From: a virus
Length of the DNA stretch: 63,263 nucleotides
IMG/VR virus record: IMGVR_UViG_3300035698_005593
Coordinates: 1 to 63,263 of that record
Strand: one strand, 5' to 3'
Shown: positions 29,122-44,541 of the stretch, piece by piece
How the letters are laid out: every line of letters starts with the position of its first letter
Position numbering within the stretch: position 1 is the stretch's first letter
Notes under the pieces: generated by a model
The model's database searches: none
What the model saw: only the letters and a program-made list of their open reading frames with translations
What the model was told of the DNA's origin: nothing
Translations under genes and position numbers: made by a program

Positions 29122-29194
29122 GGGGCTGTGGTGTAGTGGTTAGCACAACTGGTTTTCATCCAGTAGTTCGCCGGTTCGAACCCGGTCAGCCCTT
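29122..29194 (+). tRNA. tRNA-Glu (TTC)
   Basis: Acceptor GGGGCTG / CAGCCCT with one G-T pair, anticodon loop TTTTCAT, T-arm TTCGAAC. Reads GAA/GAG. No CCA encoded. A TTACTAATA motif lies at 29104-29112, just upstream of this first tRNA. Confidence 0.9.
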
Positions 29195-29199
29195 CTTAT

Positions 29200-29271
29200 T
29201 GCAGGATAGAGTACTGGCAACTCAGGGGTCTCATAAGCCCCGACATGGCGGTTCGATTCCGCCTCCTGCAA
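29200..29271 (+). tRNA. tRNA with CAT anticodon (Met or lysidine-modified Ile2)
   Basis: Acceptor TGCAGGA / TCCTGCA, D-arm GAGT...ACTC, anticodon loop CTCATAA on a GGGGT/GCCCC stem, T-loop TTCGATT. Elongator Met and Ile2 (which reads AUA after lysidine modification) cannot be separated by eye. Confidence 0.9.
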
Positions 29272-29282
29272 ATAGTTTTAAT

Positions 29283-29366
29283 GGGTATGCTGCAGAGATT
29301 GGTGCACTGGACTGTAAATCCAGTCTCAACGAGTTAACATTGTAGGTTCGAGTCCTACCGTGCCCA
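29283..29366 (+). tRNA. tRNA-Tyr (GTA)
   Basis: Acceptor GGGTATG / CGTGCCC with A73, anticodon loop CTGTAAA and a long class II variable arm, as expected of bacterial tRNA-Tyr. A queuosine-type (GUN) tRNA. Confidence 0.92.
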
Positions 29367-29372
29367 CAGTTT

Positions 29373-29445
29373 AGACCCTTAGTTCAGTTGGTAGAACATC
29401 GGGTTTTGATCCCGTAGCTCGCTGGTTCAAGTCCAGCAGGGTCTT
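29373..29445 (+). tRNA. tRNA-Gln (TTG)
   Basis: Acceptor AGACCCT / AGGGTCT, anticodon loop TTTTGAT, T-loop TTCAAGT. Top pair of the anticodon stem is a T-T mismatch. Confidence 0.9.
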
Positions 29446-29473
29446 CATTTAATATAGGATAAGGGAGTAGGTG

Positions 29474-29554
29474 ATGATGATGTTACTGGTAGTGGTTATA
29501 TCTTTTGTTGTTGGTTTTCAAGTAGGTAGACTTGTTGCACGGCATTGTGAGTAA
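29474..29554 (+). CDS. 26-aa membrane micro-protein within the tRNA cluster
   Basis: MMMLLVVVISFVVGFQVGRL then VARHCE, preceded by AAGGGAG. One hydrophobic helix, fitted between tRNA-Gln and tRNA-Asp. No family known. Confidence 0.45.
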   Translation: MMMLLVVVISFVVGFQVGRLVARHCE

Positions 29555-29562
29555 GATTTTGA

Positions 29563-29636
29563 GCCCCATTAACTCAGTCTGGTAGAGTGGTGCGTTGTCA
29601 GCGCACAAGCCGTCGGTTCAAATCCGGCATGGGGCG
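29563..29636 (+). tRNA. tRNA-Asp (GTC)
   Basis: Acceptor GCCCCAT / ATGGGGC with G73, anticodon loop TTGTCAG, T-loop TTCAAAT. A queuosine-type tRNA. Confidence 0.93.
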
Positions 29637-29642
29637 CTTCAT

Positions 29643-29715
29643 TGTATAGTAGCTCAGTTGGTAGAGCAACTCCCTGTTAAGGAGAAGGTCGAAGGTTCGA
29701 GTCCTTCCTGTACAG
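29643..29715 (+). tRNA. tRNA-Asn (GTT)
   Basis: Acceptor TGTATAG / CTGTACA with G73, anticodon loop CTGTTAA, T-loop TTCGAGT. A queuosine-type tRNA. Confidence 0.93.
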
Positions 29716-29743
29716 ATCTGTACAGATTAAAAGGAGGCATTGT

Positions 29744-29830
29744 ATGTGTGATATACTACTATCTGTCGTAGCTGTGCTAATGATAGTGTCATTAGTTGGG
29801 GGTCTGTTATTCTTTATGAGGGACAGCTGA
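29744..29830 (+). CDS. 28-aa membrane micro-protein within the tRNA cluster
   Basis: Starts MCDILLSVVAVLMIVSLVGG and ends FFMRDS, with AAAGGAGG upstream. A single membrane helix. With the 29474 micro-protein it makes two tiny membrane ORFs interleaved with tRNAs. Confidence 0.5.
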   Translation: MCDILLSVVAVLMIVSLVGGLLFFMRDS

Positions 29831-29841
29831 TTTAACTACTT

Positions 29842-29915
29842 GCCCTTGTAGCTCAGCTGGATAGAGCAAAGGTTTTCTAAACCTTAGGCAACAGGTTCGA
29901 GTCCTGTCAAGGGTA
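29842..29915 (+). tRNA. tRNA-Arg (TCT)
   Basis: Acceptor GCCCTTG / CAAGGGT with A73, anticodon stem AAGGT/ACCTT, loop TTTCTAA. Reads AGA/AGG, common in this AT-rich genome. Confidence 0.93.
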
Positions 29916-29918
29916 TTT

Positions 29919-29991
29919 GGGAGTATGATTGTAAGTGGCAACGGCCGGGCCTCCAACCCGTGTCTTGTGGTTTCGATTACCACTACTCTCT
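29919..29991 (+). tRNA. tRNA-Gly (TCC), unusual C33
   Basis: Acceptor GGGAGTA / TACTCTC, anticodon loop CCTCCAA, T-loop TTCGATT. Position 33 is C instead of the near-universal U, and the D-arm is weak, so it may be poorly functional or specially adapted. Confidence 0.75.
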
Positions 29992-30006
29992 CATTAACTG
30001 TTTTAC

Positions 30007-30079
30007 GCCACTATAGCTCACTTGGTAGAGCAAGAGTCTTGTAAACTCTAGGTACTCAGTTCGATTCTGAGTGGTGGCT
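30007..30079 (+). tRNA. tRNA-Thr (TGT)
   Basis: Acceptor GCCACTA / TGGTGGC, anticodon stem AGAGT/ACTCT, loop CTTGTAA. Confidence 0.93.
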
Positions 30080-30115
30080 CATAACTTAGCCCCTATATAG
30101 AAGATTAGTAGTTAA

Positions 30116-30189
30116 GGACCGGTGGCGCAGTCTGGTAGCGCAACAGCCTTTTAAGCTGTATGCCCTGGGTTCAAATCCCAGCCGGTTCA
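30116..30189 (+). tRNA. tRNA-Lys (TTT)
   Basis: Acceptor GGACCGG / CCGGTTC with A73, anticodon stem ACAGC/GCTGT, loop CTTTTAA. Confidence 0.93.
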
Positions 30190-30194
30190 CGTAT

Positions 30195-30268
30195 GGTAAT
30201 TATATCTCAGTTGGTTAGAGACCCGGACTGTGAATCCGGTTACATGGGTTCGAGCCCCATTAGTTACC
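30195..30268 (+). tRNA. tRNA-His (GTG)
   Basis: Genome-encoded G(-1) opposite C73, the His identity pair. Acceptor GTAATTA / TAGTTAC, anticodon loop CTGTGAA. A queuosine-type tRNA. Confidence 0.93.
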
Positions 30269-30334
30269 CATTCCTTGGAAGCCTCTTTTCATTCTGACGT
30301 AGAGTGGATAAGCTCAAATGTCCGAGGCGTTTAT
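30269..30334 (+). other. Unassigned spacer, possible structured RNA
   Basis: 66 bp between tRNA-His and the terminator with no ORF or tRNA T-loop. A GCCTC/GAGGC pairing (30281-30285 with 30324-30328) could fold it. Nothing firmer can be said. Confidence 0.25.
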
Positions 30335-30371
30335 GTGTAGAAGGACCTGCAGGTCCTCTTACACACTTTTT
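30335..30371 (+). terminator. Rho-independent terminator inside the tRNA cluster
   Basis: GTGTAGAAGGACC, loop TGCA, GGTCCTCTTACAC, then AC and TTTTT. The long stem has two adjacent non-Watson-Crick positions. It ends directly at the first base of the last tRNA, which must be made by read-through or a separate start. Confidence 0.75.
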
Positions 30372-30445
30372 GGCCATCTAAGCTAGTTGGTAAAGCTATG
30401 GGACTTAAAATCGCATGTTGCTGGGTTCAACTCCCAGGGTGGCTA
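30372..30445 (+). tRNA. tRNA-Leu-like (TAA) with short variable loop
   Basis: Acceptor GGCCATC / GGTGGCT with A73, D-arm AGCT...AGCT, anticodon loop CTTAAAA, T-loop TTCAACT. The anticodon arm is Leu-like, but the variable loop is only about five bases, whereas bacterial tRNA-Leu has a long arm. One G-G mismatch in the anticodon stem. Confidence 0.75.
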
Positions 30446-30470
30446 ATTTAAAATTATAAGGAGAATCAGA

Positions 30471-34631: not shown

Positions 34632-34707
34632 AACTGACGTTTTAATGAATGTCTTACTATATGTTACATGGATTTTTACTTCCTATTTTAATTTCATCAA
34701 AGAGTGA
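34618..34707 (+). CDS. Possible 29-aa membrane micro-protein
   Basis: MRKNETDVLMNVLLYVTWIF then TSYFNFIKE; AGGA lies eight bases upstream. It overlaps the 34649 frame for most of its length, so at most one of the two is likely to be the main product. Confidence 0.3.
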   Translation: MRKNETDVLMNVLLYVTWIFTSYFNFIKE

Positions 34708-34837
34708 TGAACAAGTAATATTTGGTTTTATAATAGGGATTGTTTACTTGTGGTTACCTTTTAACTTAATCAAGGTAAAGGTACAAGCACTTATACAAAA
34801 AAGAAAAAAGAAAAAAGGAGAGTACTATGAAAATTAG
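34649..34837 (+). CDS. Small membrane protein with basic tail
   Basis: 62 aa. Two hydrophobic stretches, then a KRKKKKGEYYEN tail that overlaps the next start by 11 bases. No strong SD precedes its ATG. An internal start is possible. Confidence 0.45.
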   Translation: MSYYMLHGFLLPILISSKSDEQVIFGFIIGIVYLWLPFNLIKVKVQALIQKRKKKKGEYYEN

Positions 34838-35123
34838 AACTGGTTTTGTATCAAACAGCAGTAGCAGTAGCTTTTGTATCTTAGGAGTAGAAGTAGACTA
34901 TGGCATAAACTACTATGGTATACTGGGTGACTCTAAGCTTACCCAAGAGTATGGTCTTGAAAACTACTATGATATGCAGTTTGTTGGAATCTATCCTGAA
35001 TCCATTCCTGAAGACATGACTATTGCAGAGGCAAAGGTTATGGTTAAAGAAGAGCTTGTAAAGGTGGGTATTAAAACCGATAAAACCCCCTCTTGGTATA
35101 CTGATGGAGGTCGTGACGGATGA
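34827..35123 (+). CDS. SNSSSSSF-family protein, paralogue 1
   Basis: 98 aa. The first 16 residues are MKIRTGFVSNSSSSSF, shared almost exactly by the next four genes; the remaining 82 residues are unrelated and acidic. AAAGGAG upstream. I know of this N-terminal motif from many uncharacterised phage and bacterial proteins, but no function is established. It could be a recognition leader or targeting peptide. It overlaps paralogue 2 by ATGA. Confidence 0.85.
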   Translation: MKIRTGFVSNSSSSSFCILGVEVDYGINYYGILGDSKLTQEYGLENYYDMQFVGIYPESIPEDMTIAEAKVMVKEELVKVGIKTDKTPSWYTDGGRDG

Positions 35124-35545
35124 AAATAAGAACTGGTTTTGTAAGCAACAGCAGCAGCAGTAGTTTTATTATTGCTACACCAAAGAGGGAGAAAGAGGTT
35201 ATTATTACTGTGAAGATGAATATCTCTTCTCTTATATCTAAAAGTGCTTCTACTCCTATGGAGTTAATGGAAGCTATTGATGAACAGTATTATCTCTTCG
35301 GTAGTTATGGGAAAGATAAAGAAGATTTCACAGCAGAGCAGTTTATGGAAGTACTTGTCAAAGAAGGTGACTGGGCTGTAAAAGAATTCAATGAGTGTCT
35401 GGCAATGATTGAAAAAGGTATGACTATTCATTTCGGAAGGGCTTCCAATGAAGGTGATGCCTCAGAAGACGGTTATGTGTATAATAATGGGTTGGATGAG
35501 AACGAGCTTTCAGATAGTTGTGTAGTAATCAGGGCAGGTGACTGA
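35120..35545 (+). CDS. SNSSSSSF-family protein, paralogue 2
   Basis: 141 aa. N-terminus MKIRTGFVSNSSSSSFIIAT, then an alpha/beta domain with a helical centre (ASTPMELMEAIDEQYY) and an acidic C-terminus. The Ser codons (AGC AGC AGC AGT AGT) differ from those of its neighbours while the peptide is kept. It shares one base with the start of paralogue 3. Confidence 0.85.
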   Translation: MKIRTGFVSNSSSSSFIIATPKREKEVIITVKMNISSLISKSASTPMELMEAIDEQYYLFGSYGKDKEDFTAEQFMEVLVKEGDWAVKEFNECLAMIEKGMTIHFGRASNEGDASEDGYVYNNGLDENELSDSCVVIRAGD

Positions 35546-35997
35546 TGAAGATTCGAAGAGGTTTTGTAAGCAATAGTAGTTCATCAAGTTTTATTATTGG
35601 CTATGGTGTTATTAAAGACAGAAACAAGTTTGATAAATACTGTAAGGAGAATAAAATTGAAGTGTCTACTGATGTTGATGGTTATGGTCAAGTAAAGGTA
35701 ACTAGGGCATGGGGTATAGGGAAGGAAAACAGAGTTTTGTCTATGACTAATGATACGGAACTAATTATCCCAAAGAAAATTACAGATCTTAGTCAAGATG
35801 TAGTTGTTGTTGAACTTGGTAATGATGAAGGTGATAGTGAGTTTTATATTCAAGATAATGAGTACGAACTCGAGTGGGATAAGGCAAAGAGTAAATCATA
35901 CTGGACCGGATATCAAAGAGCCATTATTGATTTGTTCGAGGAGAAGGGGATCATAAAAGATTCAGAGGTGATCTTCGGAGCGGAACGAAATGGCTAA
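35545..35997 (+). CDS. SNSSSSSF-family protein, paralogue 3
   Basis: 150 aa. N-terminus MKIRRGFVSNSSSSSFIIGY (Thr5 to Arg), then a beta-rich acidic domain. Ser codons AGT AGT TCA TCA AGT. It overlaps paralogue 4 by eight bases. Unknown. Confidence 0.85.
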   Translation: MKIRRGFVSNSSSSSFIIGYGVIKDRNKFDKYCKENKIEVSTDVDGYGQVKVTRAWGIGKENRVLSMTNDTELIIPKKITDLSQDVVVVELGNDEGDSEFYIQDNEYELEWDKAKSKSYWTGYQRAIIDLFEEKGIIKDSEVIFGAERNG

Positions 35998-36289
35998 AAT
36001 AAGAACAGGGTTTGTCAGTAATAGTTCAAGTAGCTCATTTATAGTACGTAGAAATGAATGTTCTAATGATTACTGGTACATTCTAACTATGTGGTCAATT
36101 ACAGAGTGGGTTAAGATACACGAGGATATTCTTAACGAAAGGGGAGTTGACTATAAGCTATATAACACTTGCCCATGGCAGATGGAGGGCGATTACTATT
36201 CTGATAGTGTAAAATTTTCAACAAGCATGGACAATTTTAAAATGACTAATATACTTGATTACTTAAAAATACCATATCACGCGGAGTAG
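35990..36289 (+). CDS. SNSSSSSF-family protein, paralogue 4
   Basis: 99 aa. N-terminus MAKIRTGFVSNSSSSSFIVR, with one inserted residue after Met. The body is Trp- and Tyr-rich and unrelated to the others. Ser codons AGT TCA AGT AGC TCA. Confidence 0.83.
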   Translation: MAKIRTGFVSNSSSSSFIVRRNECSNDYWYILTMWSITEWVKIHEDILNERGVDYKLYNTCPWQMEGDYYSDSVKFSTSMDNFKMTNILDYLKIPYHAE

Positions 36290-36293
36290 AGAA

Positions 36294-36665
36294 ATGAAAA
36301 TAAGAACAGGGTTTGTAAGTAACAGTAGTTCATCTTCCTTTGTGATTATTGGAAAAGATGTTAGTTTCAATAGAATAGATAAAGTAGAGGGTGATGTTTG
36401 GTTTCTTGGAAAATGGTTTTCAAATGGAAGGGATATTTTTAAGTTGACGAACGCCCATAAAGACATTATATTAGATAAGGGGGTAGATGGAGAGTTTGTT
36501 CATGCGTACCTCGTCTGTGATGAGTATGCAGAAATAGAAAAATTTCCTGATATACCGAAGGAAGAAAAAGTTATTATTAGAGTACTGGAAAGAGATCAAC
36601 ATTCATGTGTAGATGTTAAAGATTTTATTCGCCACTATGTTGAAGGTGGTTCAGATGAATATTAA
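36294..36665 (+). CDS. SNSSSSSF-family protein, paralogue 5
   Basis: 123 aa. N-terminus MKIRTGFVSNSSSSSFVIIG. The body is acidic, alpha/beta (VDGEFVHAYLVCDEY). Ser codons AGT AGT TCA TCT TCC. It is the last of the array, overlapping the next gene by 11 bases. Confidence 0.85.
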   Translation: MKIRTGFVSNSSSSSFVIIGKDVSFNRIDKVEGDVWFLGKWFSNGRDIFKLTNAHKDIILDKGVDGEFVHAYLVCDEYAEIEKFPDIPKEEKVIIRVLERDQHSCVDVKDFIRHYVEGGSDEY

Positions 36666-36900
36666 AGAATTAAAAGAGGCCATTGCTAACCTACCAGATG
36701 ACATGGAAGTAACTCTTCAAGACGACCCAGAAGGTAACGGGTATCGTTTTGCCAGAGGCGTTGAGGAAGTCGTTTATCAAGACATGGAGTATATAGATTG
36801 TGCTTACTCTCTTGACAACACGGCTGATGACAATTGTATGACTGAGGAAGAGTGGGAAGAGGTAAAAAGTTATCCTCATTCAATAGTAATTTACCCATAA
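36655..36900 (+). CDS. Hypothetical acidic protein
   Basis: 81 aa from ATG 36655 with GAAGGTGG upstream; an ATG at 36613 lies inside the upstream gene. IKELKEAIANLPDDMEV is an N-terminal motif common in small phage proteins of unknown role. Strongly acidic C-terminus. Confidence 0.65.
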   Translation: MNIKELKEAIANLPDDMEVTLQDDPEGNGYRFARGVEEVVYQDMEYIDCAYSLDNTADDNCMTEEEWEEVKSYPHSIVIYP

Positions 36901-36918: not shown

Positions 36919-38007
36919 ATGAATCATGTAGAAGTTAAAGAGAATGATGTTTTTAAAACAGTAAGAAGCAAGTATTACAACTACAATTTCGATAAGGTGA
37001 CTGGAGTGTTTGCCAGATGGGGTGAGACAATTGAAGATGATCCACAAATCGCTCCTTACGGTCCAGAGATTCTTGATATCGAGATCAGTACCTCTATTCA
37101 TCCTGAAAAACAACTAACACTAGATAGAAATAGACTTTCTAATGTCGGTGGTTGTAAAGGCTCATGTGATTTTTGTTATAAGTCTAATAAGCATAACTTA
37201 CCTACTTATAACATGACTTTCGAAGAGTTCAAAACAATCTTTGATTTGATTCCAAAGACGCTGACTCAGATAGCGTTTGGTATCATGAACATAGATACTA
37301 ACCCAGACTTTTTTAAAATGATGGACTATGCAAAGGAAAATGGAGTTGTTCCTAACTTTACTTGTCATGGACTTGATGACATGACAGACGAACTTGCTAA
37401 ACGAATTAGCGAAACATGTGGTGCAGTTGCAGTCAGTGTTTACAATAAGGAAAAGTCATATGATACAATTAAAAAACTAACTGATGCTGGAATGACTCAA
37501 GTAAATATTCATTTTATGATTTGTGAAGAGACATTTAAAAAAGCAGCTGAGGTTATGGATGATATCGTAACTGATCCAAGACTTAGAAAACTTAATGCAA
37601 TGGTACTATTAAGTCTTAAACAAAAAGGTGGAGGTGAAGGATACACTCCACTTAGTTTTGAAAAGTTCTGCACACTAATTAGGCATGCTGAAGTAATTGG
37701 TATTAGATACGGAATGGATAGTTGTACTGCAACTAAATACACAAAGTATCTTAAAGAAGTTAAGAAAGACGAATCAATGCTTCAGTATGTTGAACCATGT
37801 GAGTCTTCGTTAATGAGTTCTTACATTAATGCACAAGGAGATTATTACGCCTGTTCATTTGCAGAGGGTGAAGGCATGTGGAAAAATGGTCTTAGTGTAC
37901 TAGAGTGTTCGAACTTTCTTGAAGACATATGGTTCAACGATATTAACCAATTATTTAGAACAAACTTACTTCACAATAACAGAGCTTGTCCACTATTTAA
38001 AATATAG
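36919..38007 (+). CDS. Radical SAM enzyme with SPASM-like C-terminal cysteines
   Basis: 362 aa. Cys79, Cys83 and Cys86 in GGCKGSCDFCYK bind the radical SAM 4Fe-4S cluster. Downstream the body continues the partial TIM barrel. The last 100 residues contain spaced cysteines (PCESS, YACSF, LECSN, NRACPLF) like those of SPASM/twitch domains, which hold auxiliary clusters in peptide-modifying enzymes. The substrate is unknown. It lies 254 bp after the SNSSSSSF array, so one of those proteins is a conceivable substrate (inference). AAGGAG upstream. Confidence 0.85.
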   Translation: MNHVEVKENDVFKTVRSKYYNYNFDKVTGVFARWGETIEDDPQIAPYGPEILDIEISTSIHPEKQLTLDRNRLSNVGGCKGSCDFCYKSNKHNLPTYNMTFEEFKTIFDLIPKTLTQIAFGIMNIDTNPDFFKMMDYAKENGVVPNFTCHGLDDMTDELAKRISETCGAVAVSVYNKEKSYDTIKKLTDAGMTQVNIHFMICEETFKKAAEVMDDIVTDPRLRKLNAMVLLSLKQKGGGEGYTPLSFEKFCTLIRHAEVIGIRYGMDSCTATKYTKYLKEVKKDESMLQYVEPCESSLMSSYINAQGDYYACSFAEGEGMWKNGLSVLECSNFLEDIWFNDINQLFRTNLLHNNRACPLFKI

Positions 38008-42327: not shown

Positions 42328-42801
42328 ATGTTTATGATAATAAAGAAGAAGTTCACCTCGGAGACGAGTCATATAGTGAGGAACGCTATATCAACCCGAT
42401 GCAAATTCAACATTCACGGACACTCGTATAAGTGGTATGTTTATATTAAAGGGGATGTGGGCGAAGAAACAGGAATGGTTTTAGATTTTAAAGAGCTCAA
42501 ACCAGTTAAAGAGTTTATTGACTTATTTGATCACTCAACTATCTTATGGAGAGAAGAGTCAGAGGAGTTTCGCAATTTCTTTCTTACAGAGTGTAAAAGG
42601 GTGCTTATAATGAGAAAAAACACTACTGCAGAAAACATGGCGAGAGTAGTTTTAAAGTTTACACAAGACTGGCTCGATTCGATCGGCAGTAAATGTAAGG
42701 CCCATCAAGTCGATGTATGGGAAACTGAAACTGGGTGTGCAATTGCAAACTGTTTTGATGAGAGTGACAATCTTATTCATCAACATAAGAATGACGACTG
42801 A
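42328..42801 (+). CDS. queD: 6-carboxytetrahydropterin synthase
   Basis: 157 aa (an ATG at 42334 is an alternative start). Cys25, His30 and His32 in RCKFNIHGHSYK, MVLDFKELK, NTTAENMARV and the VWETETGCA end match QueD, with zinc-binding His15/30/32. It converts dihydroneopterin triphosphate to 6-carboxytetrahydropterin, step two of the 7-deazaguanine pathway. It is followed by queE and folE. Confidence 0.9.
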   Translation: MFMIIKKKFTSETSHIVRNAISTRCKFNIHGHSYKWYVYIKGDVGEETGMVLDFKELKPVKEFIDLFDHSTILWREESEEFRNFFLTECKRVLIMRKNTTAENMARVVLKFTQDWLDSIGSKCKAHQVDVWETETGCAIANCFDESDNLIHQHKNDD

Positions 42802-42811
42802 AGGAGACATT

Positions 42812-43543
42812 ATGATAACTCTAACTGAAAAACCACATATCGTTATACAAGGAGAAGGACCTAATGTAAACAAGAAAATGATTGTTCTACGCTTCTCTGG
42901 ATGTGACGTCAAGTGTCCTAGTTGCGATTCTAAGCACACATGGCAAAAGGATAGTGACGGAGTAATTCCGGGTTTTAAGTACAGCGTTTCAGAGCTCAAA
43001 AGAGAAGTAACCGGCATGATAGAGAAACACCAGATAGACTGTATCATGCTTACAGGCGGAGAACCAATGCTCCAGAAAGTTGACATTGTAGATTTTATGG
43101 AGGCTATGAAAGCAAAACCTTTGGGCATTAAAAGACCTTTAATGTATGAGATTGAAACAGCGGGACATCACTCGTGGCGACCATGGTTTAGAAAACATGT
43201 AGTTGACATGCACATTAACTTTTCACCAAAGATTGGTTCTTTAACACCTAGTGCTAAGGATCTTGATTACATAGGTATTGCTGAAGCAGTCACTTCATAT
43301 ATACCAAGGTACTCAGTTAAAATTGTTATTGACCCCAGTGATGAAAGTGTTATAGAAACAATTAAGAACTTTAGAATTGACTATAACATACCTAGATATA
43401 ACATTTACCTTATGCCACTAGGAGCTACAAGGGAAGAGATAATTAAAAACTCAGTACTTGTTGAAGAACTAGCGATCAAATACAATTATCAATTTACAAG
43501 TAGGCAACACATTTTAATTCATGATAATAAAAAATTAGTTTAA
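42812..43543 (+). CDS. queE: 7-carboxy-7-deazaguanine synthase
   Basis: 243 aa from ATG 42812 (AAGGAG upstream); longer in-frame readings overlap queD and lack a ribosome binding site. IQGEGPNVNK, the radical SAM cluster GCDVKCPSC (Cys31, Cys35, Cys38), and LTGGEPM are QueE features. It makes 7-carboxy-7-deazaguanine (CDG) from the QueD product. Confidence 0.92.
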   Translation: MITLTEKPHIVIQGEGPNVNKKMIVLRFSGCDVKCPSCDSKHTWQKDSDGVIPGFKYSVSELKREVTGMIEKHQIDCIMLTGGEPMLQKVDIVDFMEAMKAKPLGIKRPLMYEIETAGHHSWRPWFRKHVVDMHINFSPKIGSLTPSAKDLDYIGIAEAVTSYIPRYSVKIVIDPSDESVIETIKNFRIDYNIPRYNIYLMPLGATREEIIKNSVLVEELAIKYNYQFTSRQHILIHDNKKLV

Positions 43544-43571
43544 GTAACTAAAAATACTTTTATAGTATATT
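43538..43571 (+). promoter_or_regulatory. Phage promoter element
   Basis: GTTTAAGT, 12 bases, TTTTATAGTATATT, starting at the queE stop and 15 bp upstream of folE. Confidence 0.75.
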
Positions 43572-43586
43572 AAAAGAGGAGACAAG

Positions 43587-44204
43587 ATGGATAAGATACT
43601 TAGTAACGGAAACAAGATACTAACTGATTCAGAACGAAGAAGAATGCTAAAAAAAGCAGAGACTGCTTACAAGAAGTTCCTTGAAACACTCGACTTTGAC
43701 ATTGATAATGATCAACAGCTTTTTGGTACTCCAGAAAGAGTAGCAAGAATGTATGTTAATGAGCTGTTTGCTGGTTGTTATACTGAAGAACCAAAGATGA
43801 CTGTTTTTGATAATACAGAAGAGTACGATGAAATGGTGGTGCTGGGTCCTATCAGTATCAAGTCAACATGTAGTCATCATATTATTCCTTTTATTGGAGA
43901 AGCATACATTGCTTACATACCAGATAAGAAGGTAGTTGGTATTTCTAAACTTGCTCGTATAACTAAATGGTTTATGAGGAGACCACAGATACAAGAGGAA
44001 CTTACTAAGCAGATTTCAAACTATGTTCAAGAGCACCTGAATCCCTTAGGTGTTGGTGTCTATATTAAAGCACAACACCTTTGTATGATAGCAAGAGGGG
44101 TGGAAGAGTATAATTCAAGTATGGTAACTTCGTCGTTGAGAGGGGTGTTTAAGGAATCAGAGGCAACACGAAAAGAGTTTTTTGATATTATTAAAGGAGA
44201 CTAA
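43587..44204 (+). CDS. folE: GTP cyclohydrolase I
   Basis: 205 aa. FGTPERVARMY, STCSHHIIPF (zinc ligands Cys95, His98; catalytic His97) and QHLCM (Cys166) are the active-site blocks of FolE. It converts GTP to dihydroneopterin triphosphate, the first step toward CDG. With queD and queE the phage has the complete route from GTP to CDG. Confidence 0.93.
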   Translation: MDKILSNGNKILTDSERRRMLKKAETAYKKFLETLDFDIDNDQQLFGTPERVARMYVNELFAGCYTEEPKMTVFDNTEEYDEMVVLGPISIKSTCSHHIIPFIGEAYIAYIPDKKVVGISKLARITKWFMRRPQIQEELTKQISNYVQEHLNPLGVGVYIKAQHLCMIARGVEEYNSSMVTSSLRGVFKESEATRKEFFDIIKGD

Positions 44205-44205
44205 A

Positions 44206-44541
44206 TTGAATAAAAGATATATTTGGGTCACTTCCTCATTTATTGGATTTCATCTTTACCCTGAGGCACCAGATGAAGTAAAGTTTCTTAGGAACGAACA
44301 CCGACATAAGTTTGGAGTAAAAGTGACTATAGAAGTTTTTGACAATAATAGGGACATAGAATTTTTCATGTTCCAGAGTTTTATAAACTCATTGCTTGAT
44401 AAAAACGACTTAGACTTTATGTCATGTGAGATGATTGCAGAGTCTTTGTATGTTAGGATAACTGAGAAATACTCAGATAGATCAATCATTATAGAAGTGG
44501 ACGAAGACAAAGAGAATGGCTGTAGACTAGAGTGGATATAG
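44206..44541 (+). CDS. Possible T-fold (QueD-like) small protein
   Basis: 111 aa from TTG 44206, nine bases after GGAGA. FIGFHLYPEAPDEVKFL, NEHRHKFGVKVTIEV and SCEMIAESLY match a phage family that resembles the pterin-binding T-fold in its His-rich strand and AE helix. It may be a pathway accessory or a diverged QueD relative. Resemblance by eye only. Confidence 0.6.
   Translation: MNKRYIWVTSSFIGFHLYPEAPDEVKFLRNEHRHKFGVKVTIEVFDNNRDIEFFMFQSFINSLLDKNDLDFMSCEMIAESLYVRITEKYSDRSIIIEVDEDKENGCRLEWI

Follow-up and report, generated by a model that had tools for sequence, protein, structure and literature searches.

Five consecutive viral genes share an N-terminal tag

The virus record IMGVR_UViG_3300035698_005593, analyzed here over its whole length of 63,263 bases (the window), carries five consecutive plus-strand open reading frames (ORFs) whose products begin with MKIRxGFVSNSSSSSF and then diverge. 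The common start of these ORFs, hereafter the tag, is MKIRTGFVSNSSSSSF; the only deviations are a T5R exchange in the third copy and one insertion (MAKIR) in the fourth. A sequence-only reading had noted that the five genes keep a 16-residue start with one substitution and one insertion, and the ORFs and a shuffle control agree with it: a DNA pattern for GFVSNSSSSSF, with up to three mismatches allowed, matched five times in the window as compared to a mean of 0.06 and a maximum of 1 in shuffled sequences. Outside the array, the tag motif was found nowhere else in the 63,263-base record. The array genes overlap or abut, with gaps of -4, -1, -8 and +4 nucleotides from stop to next start, suggesting that they form a single operon. 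A gene for a radical S-adenosylmethionine (radical-SAM) enzyme lies 0.25 kb downstream of the array, just beyond the segment that the sequence-only reading had delimited. This gene, at 36919-38007, is the key to the array. The features are listed below, with the part of each tagged protein that follows the tag referred to as its cargo.

34827-34874, plus strand: tag copy 1, 16 residues; the other copies start at 35120, 35545, 35993 and 36294
34827-35123, plus strand: tagged protein 1, 98 residues; cargo family of 24, several members with a W-x(1-3)-DG-like ending
35120-35545, plus strand: tagged protein 2, 141 residues; cargo family of 34, also that of the tagged protein in bacterial STAND operons
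35545-35997, plus strand: tagged protein 3, 150 residues; cargo family of 14, with an NEGDS-like motif and a GAxRNG-like C-terminal end
35990-36289, plus strand: tagged protein 4, 99 residues, MAKIR start; cargo family of 20, with an (S/T)xMDNF motif
36294-36665, plus strand: tagged protein 5, 123 residues; cargo family of 5
36613-36900, plus strand: small untagged ORF, placed between the array and the enzyme gene; matches phrog_7217, of unknown function (E 4e-5); the true start may be further in
36919-38007, plus strand: radical-SAM/twitch (SPASM-like) enzyme, 362 residues; CxxxCxxC (C79, C83, C86) and C294-x12-G-x4-C312; phrog_7293

Directly upstream of the first tagged gene, and overlapping it, a small predicted membrane protein is encoded (34649-34837; phrog_1130, host takeover category).

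The tag is conserved as a peptide

The N-terminal DNA pattern was searched in viral contigs and in a collection of 84,980 species genomes. It was present in at least 120 viral contig stretches as compared to only 22 stretches among the species genomes, indicating a mainly viral distribution of the tag. In the 269 distinct closed proteins of these pattern-found loci, conservation covers residues 1-18 and ends there. As this set had been chosen by the tag pattern, residues were recounted in loci found via the enzyme alone, which gave 289 distinct tag copies. The general form of the tag is MK[IVT]RxGFVSNSSSSSF[IV][IV]. Both R4 and S11 occur in all 289 copies, N10 in 288 and S12 in 287. Position 7 is always an aromatic-type residue (F 284, Y 3, W 1, H 1), position 8 is V in 280 copies and otherwise I, position 9 is S in 281, A in seven and G in one (T in bacteria), and position 16 is F in 274 and Y in 13. 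Positions 13-14 are looser than their neighbors. Cys is rare within the tag (twice at position 6, ten times at 14, twice at 15 and once at 16) and becomes commoner at positions 17 (26 copies) and 18 (28 copies). Conservation passes through the hydrophobic residues 17-18 into the cargo. The tag profile contains no conserved Glu, nor a Pro-x-Arg following the Ser run. The strictest positions, R4, N10, S11, S12 and the aromatic residue 7, suggest contact or modified residues.

Ser codons vary among the five window copies, with AGY and TCN classes mixed, as the sequence-only reading had observed. Its further claim, that selection acts on the peptide and that the array does not reflect recent duplication, is borne out on a larger scale: across 475 distinct tagged genes, each of the six Ser positions uses all six Ser codons while the peptide stays fixed. 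On this codon use, we rejected recent duplication of the tagged genes. Within a locus, the codon class differs between copies at 0.35 of Ser positions, as compared to 0.49 expected for independence, so the copies of one locus are not fully independent.

The tag precedes unrelated, acidic cargoes

Upon removal of the tag, 274 proteins (the 269 above and the five window proteins) fell into 81 sequence clusters, 56 of them singletons, and the five window cargoes belong to five separate clusters with the member numbers listed above. Profile-profile comparison of the 16 largest clusters yielded a best probability of 27%; the cargo alignments are shallow, so some families may still be distant kin. 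The statement that the remainders of the five proteins are unrelated thus holds within the window, with the qualification that no cargo is an orphan: each recurs elsewhere. Of the 337 distinct matches that 14 cargo profiles gave among the 16,351 open frames of the loci, 318 carried the tag, four a variant tag, and seven were cut off.

The tagged proteins have a median length of 135 residues (269 proteins), and their cargoes are acidic (median isoelectric point [pI] 4.45, net charge -9.8 per 100 residues; n = 242) in comparison with ORFs of 80-250 residues from the enzyme-found loci (median pI 6.56, net charge 0; n = 1,120). AlphaFold2 modeled window protein 2 with a mostly confident cargo and a tag of low confidence (mean pLDDT of 58 for residues 1-10, no secondary structure in residues 1-34); with 25 sequences, this model is weak evidence. 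A rigid fold element formed by the tag was rejected for this one cargo on the same, equally weak grounds. The sequence-only reading had regarded membership of the motif in one conserved fold as an argument against itself; the lack of profile similarity between the families, together with the unstructured tag in this single model, speaks in part against such a fold.

The five window proteins matched no family in Pfam, NCBIfam or PADLOC, and Pfam returned nothing above cut-off for ten further tagged proteins. The match of PHROG family phrog_7397 to the five window proteins is limited to their first 19-30 residues, apart from one chance-level match. A PDB sequence search with tagged protein 1 gave a single weak, irrelevant match, and a zinc-finger-like tagged family had no match in phage records; nor did tagged protein 2 in a tblastn search of these, perhaps due to masking of the Ser run by the low-complexity filter. 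Many members of the cargo families numbered 2 and 5 share a similar Gly-rich C-terminus (GAGRNG, WxDG), suggesting that both ends of these proteins are constrained.

The enzyme resembles peptide-modifying radical-SAM proteins

The window enzyme scores 29.8 bits against Pfam Radical_SAM (cut-off 29.5), and its matches to NCBIfam peptide maturases lie far below every curated cut-off. In an alignment of 35 relatives, every row keeps the three cysteines of CxxxCxxC and another four. Two of these four, C294 and C312, form C-x12-G-x4-C, with G307 nearly invariant in 27 phage rows. The SPASM/twitch auxiliary-cluster motif is C-x(9-15)-G-x4-C, and the window enzyme conforms to it. A bacterial relative (locus L139) scores 38.7 bits against the SPASM model TIGR04085 (cut-off 27).

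AlphaFold2 predicted the structure of the window enzyme with a pLDDT of 94.3. The best structural matches in the PDB were SuiB with precursor peptide (Z 24.4; 301 residues, 3.1 Å) and SkfB (Z 22.4), followed by anSMEcpe (Z 19.0), CteB (Z 18.7), PqqE (Z 18.4) and ChlB (Z 18.2); most of these top matches have peptides or proteins as substrates. The matches also include viperin-like enzymes (Z 18.4), whose substrates are nucleotides, so a peptide substrate cannot be concluded from the fold alone. In two tag-bearing viral records of 548 and 162 kb (loci L045 and L071), the enzyme frame contains one TAG codon, which hints at amber recoding.

Tag and enzyme are linked in viral loci

Starting from the tag, an enzyme relative was encoded within the same stretch in 51 of 142 tag-bearing stretches of 1-15 kb. 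We then turned to 45 tag-bearing viral records, chosen from those listed and all but one longer than 60 kb. The enzyme was found at E ≤ 1e-99 in 33 of them, including 27 of the 32 records of at least 100 kb.

Conversely, 80 viral loci were collected with the enzyme profile alone. A strict tag ORF was present in 74 of these (75 by weight matrix), all 291 strict tag copies lie on the strand of the enzyme gene, and the median nearest distance is 0.6 kb; a reversed-sequence control gave no tag. Among neighbor families defined by BLAST, the tag cluster occurred in 72 of the 80 loci and the commonest other family in 12. The census of neighboring genes that the sequence-only reading had proposed thereby yields a likely modifier, the radical-SAM enzyme. 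Of two control queries, a QueE-like protein found no relatives, and a FolE-like protein found only eight loci, none with a tag. Since the enzyme profile had been built from tag-bearing loci, sets not chosen for the tag were used as well (see below).

Elsewhere in the window, 11 tRNA genes are clustered at 29122-30446, adjacent genes at 42713-44541 resemble QueE, FolE and QueD of 7-deazaguanine synthesis (named by eye), and an ORF near the record start (12-275) is built of a repeating MELGK-like unit.

The linkage extends to bacteria, plasmids and isolated phages

Of the 22 cellular tag loci, 21 were searched genome-wide, and 20 of these 21 genomes contain the enzyme at E < 1e-36, some as partial matches. 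A survey of one bacterial family (200 genomes) found the enzyme (E ≤ 1e-45) in four and a relaxed tag in the same four; the tag had played no part in the choice of three of these, whose copies have D6, a variant that the pattern was made to accept once they had been seen. Among 61 genomes of another order, enzyme and tag both occurred only in the starting genome, itself chosen for its tag. Relatives of the bacterial enzyme were found in seven plasmid records; in all four inspected, a tagged gene beginning MK[IL]K[ML]DFVSNSSSTSF lies directly upstream of the enzyme gene. On an enzyme tree with 42 tips, tag position 9 (S or T) requires two changes; T14 is fixed in one bacterial clade and found in some phage tags too. 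Tag variation largely follows the enzyme clades.

Phage RB43 has two tagged genes, RB43ORF116c and RB43ORF121c, about 20-24 kb from the enzyme gene RB43ORF169c. Pfam Radical_SAM missed this enzyme and picked another protein; the family profile found it. Phage RB16 has an intact enzyme, annotated as a putative radical SAM protein. Across 50,697 isolated-phage records, the counts were 172 for the enzyme and 174 for a tagged gene of the RB43 type, and they were nearly identical by host genus; as counts rather than records were compared, and most of these phages form one related group, this agreement is supporting evidence only. The RB43-type tag query found no Vibrio record, though one Vibrio record holds the enzyme, as does one record without a host genus. 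Between the two RB43 tagged genes lies RB43ORF119c (739 residues; L249:3256-5475), which has a DVSGS motif resembling a vWA metal site and recalls the vWA conflict systems with radical-SAM enzymes described in a passage of PMC7159879. No vWA gene was detected in the window by Pfam VWA_2.

Bacterial tagged genes often lie in operons with STAND-like NTPases

Just upstream of the tagged gene, 8 of 15 cellular stretches encode a large protein, assigned to the same family by BLAST; the hosts are Acetatifactor, other Lachnospiraceae, a Clostridia metagenome-assembled genome, Veillonella, Sulfuricurvum and Verrucomicrobia. Where examined, this protein mostly gave weak NACHT/STAND matches, with most Pfam NACHT scores below cut-off, and several copies have a trypsin-like or SMEK N-terminus. 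The bacterial STAND proteins comprise 618-984 residues, and they matched Avs2 profiles of about 1,400-1,600 positions only up to about position 790. The gene order in Lachnobacterium bovis is metallo-hydrolase (LmuA E 9e-62, Avs1a 7e-47), trypsin-NACHT protein, 143-residue protein, tagged protein, enzyme and 313-residue protein, and the Veillonella operon has the same order. All four plasmid loci encode a SMEK-STAND protein, a tagged protein and the enzyme, with an annotated gene for about 121 residues in between in three of them. The tagged proteins from the cellular loci of this STAND branch fall into the same cargo family as window protein 2. No STAND operon was seen in the stretches examined of two further cellular loci of the STAND branch or of the other bacterial branch.

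A short STAND NTPase, a protein of about 120-143 residues, a tagged protein and the radical-SAM enzyme thus recur together (loci L254, L256 and L257, and plasmid loci L258-L261). These operons are a candidate for an unrecorded Avs-like subtype with separate sensor-like subunits.

The tag as a probable substrate site of the radical-SAM enzyme

We suggest, with a probability of roughly 0.75, that the tag is the site at which the radical-SAM enzyme both recognizes and modifies its substrates, the enzyme being a radical-SAM/SPASM-type peptide maturase dedicated to the proteins that bear the tag. The enzyme would bind the N-terminal segment in extended form, with K2, R4 and the aromatic residues as contacts, and a SAM-derived radical would modify the F7-S15 stretch. 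The modified N-terminus would stay on the protein and so give many unrelated, acidic small proteins a common property. One candidate chemistry is a C-C crosslink from an aromatic residue to its neighbor, for which F7-V8-S9 offers an aromatic-x-Ser sequence; another is oxidation or epimerization at N10-S11-S12. Both are leading candidates, and neither is preferred. A sactipeptide thioether is unlikely, given the rarity of Cys in the tag.

Several observations weigh against this proposal. The enzyme is missing from 12 of the 45 tag-bearing viral records, five of them at least 100 kb long, and one of the 21 cellular tag-bearing genomes has only a weak enzyme match; fragmentation may explain both. 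Conversely, 5 of the 80 enzyme loci have no tag even by weight matrix, and 8 of the 337 cargo homologues are truncated or tagless, some of them adjoining an enzyme gene. The viral enzyme-to-tag test is not fully independent, owing to the origin of its profile. D6 arises in two separate bacterial groups, so tag variants do not all follow the enzyme tree. The window enzyme has no TIGR04085 SPASM domain match in NCBIfam (E ≤ 0.1). The RB43 enzyme gene is split by a frameshift in record NC_007023 (L236:8713-9859); it is in one piece in the other record, HE858210, and PMC9960720 reports a split copy for a Klebsiella phage. Finally, action of the enzyme on the tag, its chemistry and its biological role are what we infer from linkage, conservation, predicted fold and operon context.

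In a different explanation, the tag is a binding, localization or stability signal (or a degron) read by another protein, and the enzyme travels along for another reason. The tag-bearing records without enzyme, the 20-24 kb that separate tagged genes and enzyme in RB43, and the so far inferential status of the modification would all fit. However, no other gene comes anywhere near the enzyme in its linkage to the tag; this linkage holds in phages, plasmids and chromosomes, and tag position 9 tracks the enzyme clades. We therefore regard such a signal as unlikely.

Less probable still is a small molecule akin to ribosomally synthesized and post-translationally modified peptides (RiPPs), with the modified N-terminal peptide cleaved off to act alone and the cargo a disposable follower. 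The nearest folds of the enzyme are RiPP maturases, and a constant peptide precedes a variable remainder. Against this, 12 of the 80 enzyme loci is the most that any other gene family reaches, protease and exporter families included, and the cargoes are recurring families with motifs of their own rather than spacers. For those bacterial operons that encode a trypsin-like domain, this reading is less improbable. The same census, together with conservation running through residues 17-18, bears on the function assigned by the sequence-only reading: a recognition leader or modification signal is well supported, a removable targeting or cleavage leader less so.

T4 internal proteins carry one N-terminal capsid-targeting sequence on several different proteins, and this sequence includes a Glu-containing prohead-protease site. 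By analogy, the tag might load proteins into the phage head for injection, as its presence on different proteins and the mostly viral distribution of tagged genes could suggest. The tag lacks such a protease site, however, and is also found next to STAND NTPases in operons of chromosomes and plasmids, a setting with no evident capsid; we consider this role very improbable. A nucleic-acid element at the start codon (a recombination site or translation control), suggested by the position of the motif at the very start of each gene, is largely refuted by the use of six codons at every Ser position over 475 genes with a fixed peptide, and can be practically dismissed.

Returning to the proposed substrate tag, phages deploy arrays of tagged proteins, and bacteria have the same tag-enzyme pair inside STAND-NTPase operons. 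These operons resemble anti-phage systems, which points to phage-host conflict as the setting. Our best guess is a role in this conflict, for which decoy, inhibitor and detected-product versions are possible. In a more specific and speculative form, which we hold to be rather doubtful, the radical-SAM N-terminal mark might be a shared currency of the conflict: the marked host protein might act as the sensor, or as an adaptor, for short STAND NTPases in which the usual long sensor region is missing, and the marked acidic phage proteins, of which window protein 2 falls into the cargo family of the host subunit, might be decoys, inhibitors or the detected trigger.

The proposal offers a possible explanation for a striking N-terminus that a great many phage proteins without annotation have in common, and it names a candidate enzyme, present also in phages that grow on laboratory E. 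coli (RB43 and RB16). If the proposal is true, the substrate sequence of a post-translational modification recurs in dozens of protein families that are not related to each other. This would reverse the rule of one enzyme for one precursor that usually holds for radical-SAM peptide maturases, and would tie radical-SAM peptide chemistry to STAND-type bacterial immunity.

Comparison with known systems

In fold, CxxxCxxC motif and auxiliary-cluster cysteines, the window enzyme is like the maturases SuiB/StrB, SkfB, CteB, ChlB, PqqE and MftC (mycofactocin). As with known radical-SAM/SPASM maturases, its gene lies near a short conserved substrate-like sequence (74 of 80 viral and four of four plasmid loci). 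Unlike in those systems, this sequence does not belong to a short precursor; it forms the start of full-size proteins from many families that are unrelated to each other. Tagged proteins differ from RiPP precursors in their median length of 135 residues and in the lack of a protease or exporter family in more than 12 of 80 loci, and the tag differs from sactipeptides and ranthipeptides, which have Cys in the modified core, in that Cys is rare in it.

Radical-SAM enzymes that form three-residue cyclophanes act on FxS-type precursors. The tag likewise presents an aromatic-x-Ser sequence (F7-V8-S9), with F, Y, W or H at position 7 in 289 of 289 copies; it differs in position 9, which is A in seven copies, G in one and T in bacteria, and in its substrate context. 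The anaerobic sulfatase-maturating enzymes (anSME; Z 19.0) are also radical-SAM/SPASM enzymes that modify a residue in another protein. Their substrate motif is C/S-x-P/A-x-R, which the tag does not contain. T4 internal proteins similarly share one N-terminal sequence among several phage proteins, but the tag has a different sequence and no protease site, and tagged genes also occur in host operons.

The bacterial tagged operons share with AVAST/Avs systems NACHT/STAND-like proteins with trypsin-like or SMEK N-termini and, in some cases, an Avs1a/LmuA-like metallo-hydrolase; they differ in their short STAND proteins and in the genes after these, which encode a small protein, the tagged protein and the radical-SAM enzyme. 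For predicted vWA-MoxR/FtsH ternary conflict systems, a radical-SAM enzyme has been proposed to modify a peptide effector encoded by another gene, according to a passage of Kaur et al. 2020 (PMC7159879). Those systems have a different NTPase partner, and neither the tag nor phage arrays feature in that passage. In one open literature library, we found no description of SNSSSSSF or NSSSSSF strings, the tag or the tag-enzyme pairing, and PMC3037559 and PMC10853773 had no bearing on the tag. The enzyme class is thus already known, as is, from the passage cited, the proposal that a radical-SAM enzyme modifies a peptide effector in another conflict system; the apparent novelty is that one and the same N-terminal substrate tag stands on full-size proteins of many unrelated kinds, which phages encode in arrays, and that bacterial STAND operons have it too.

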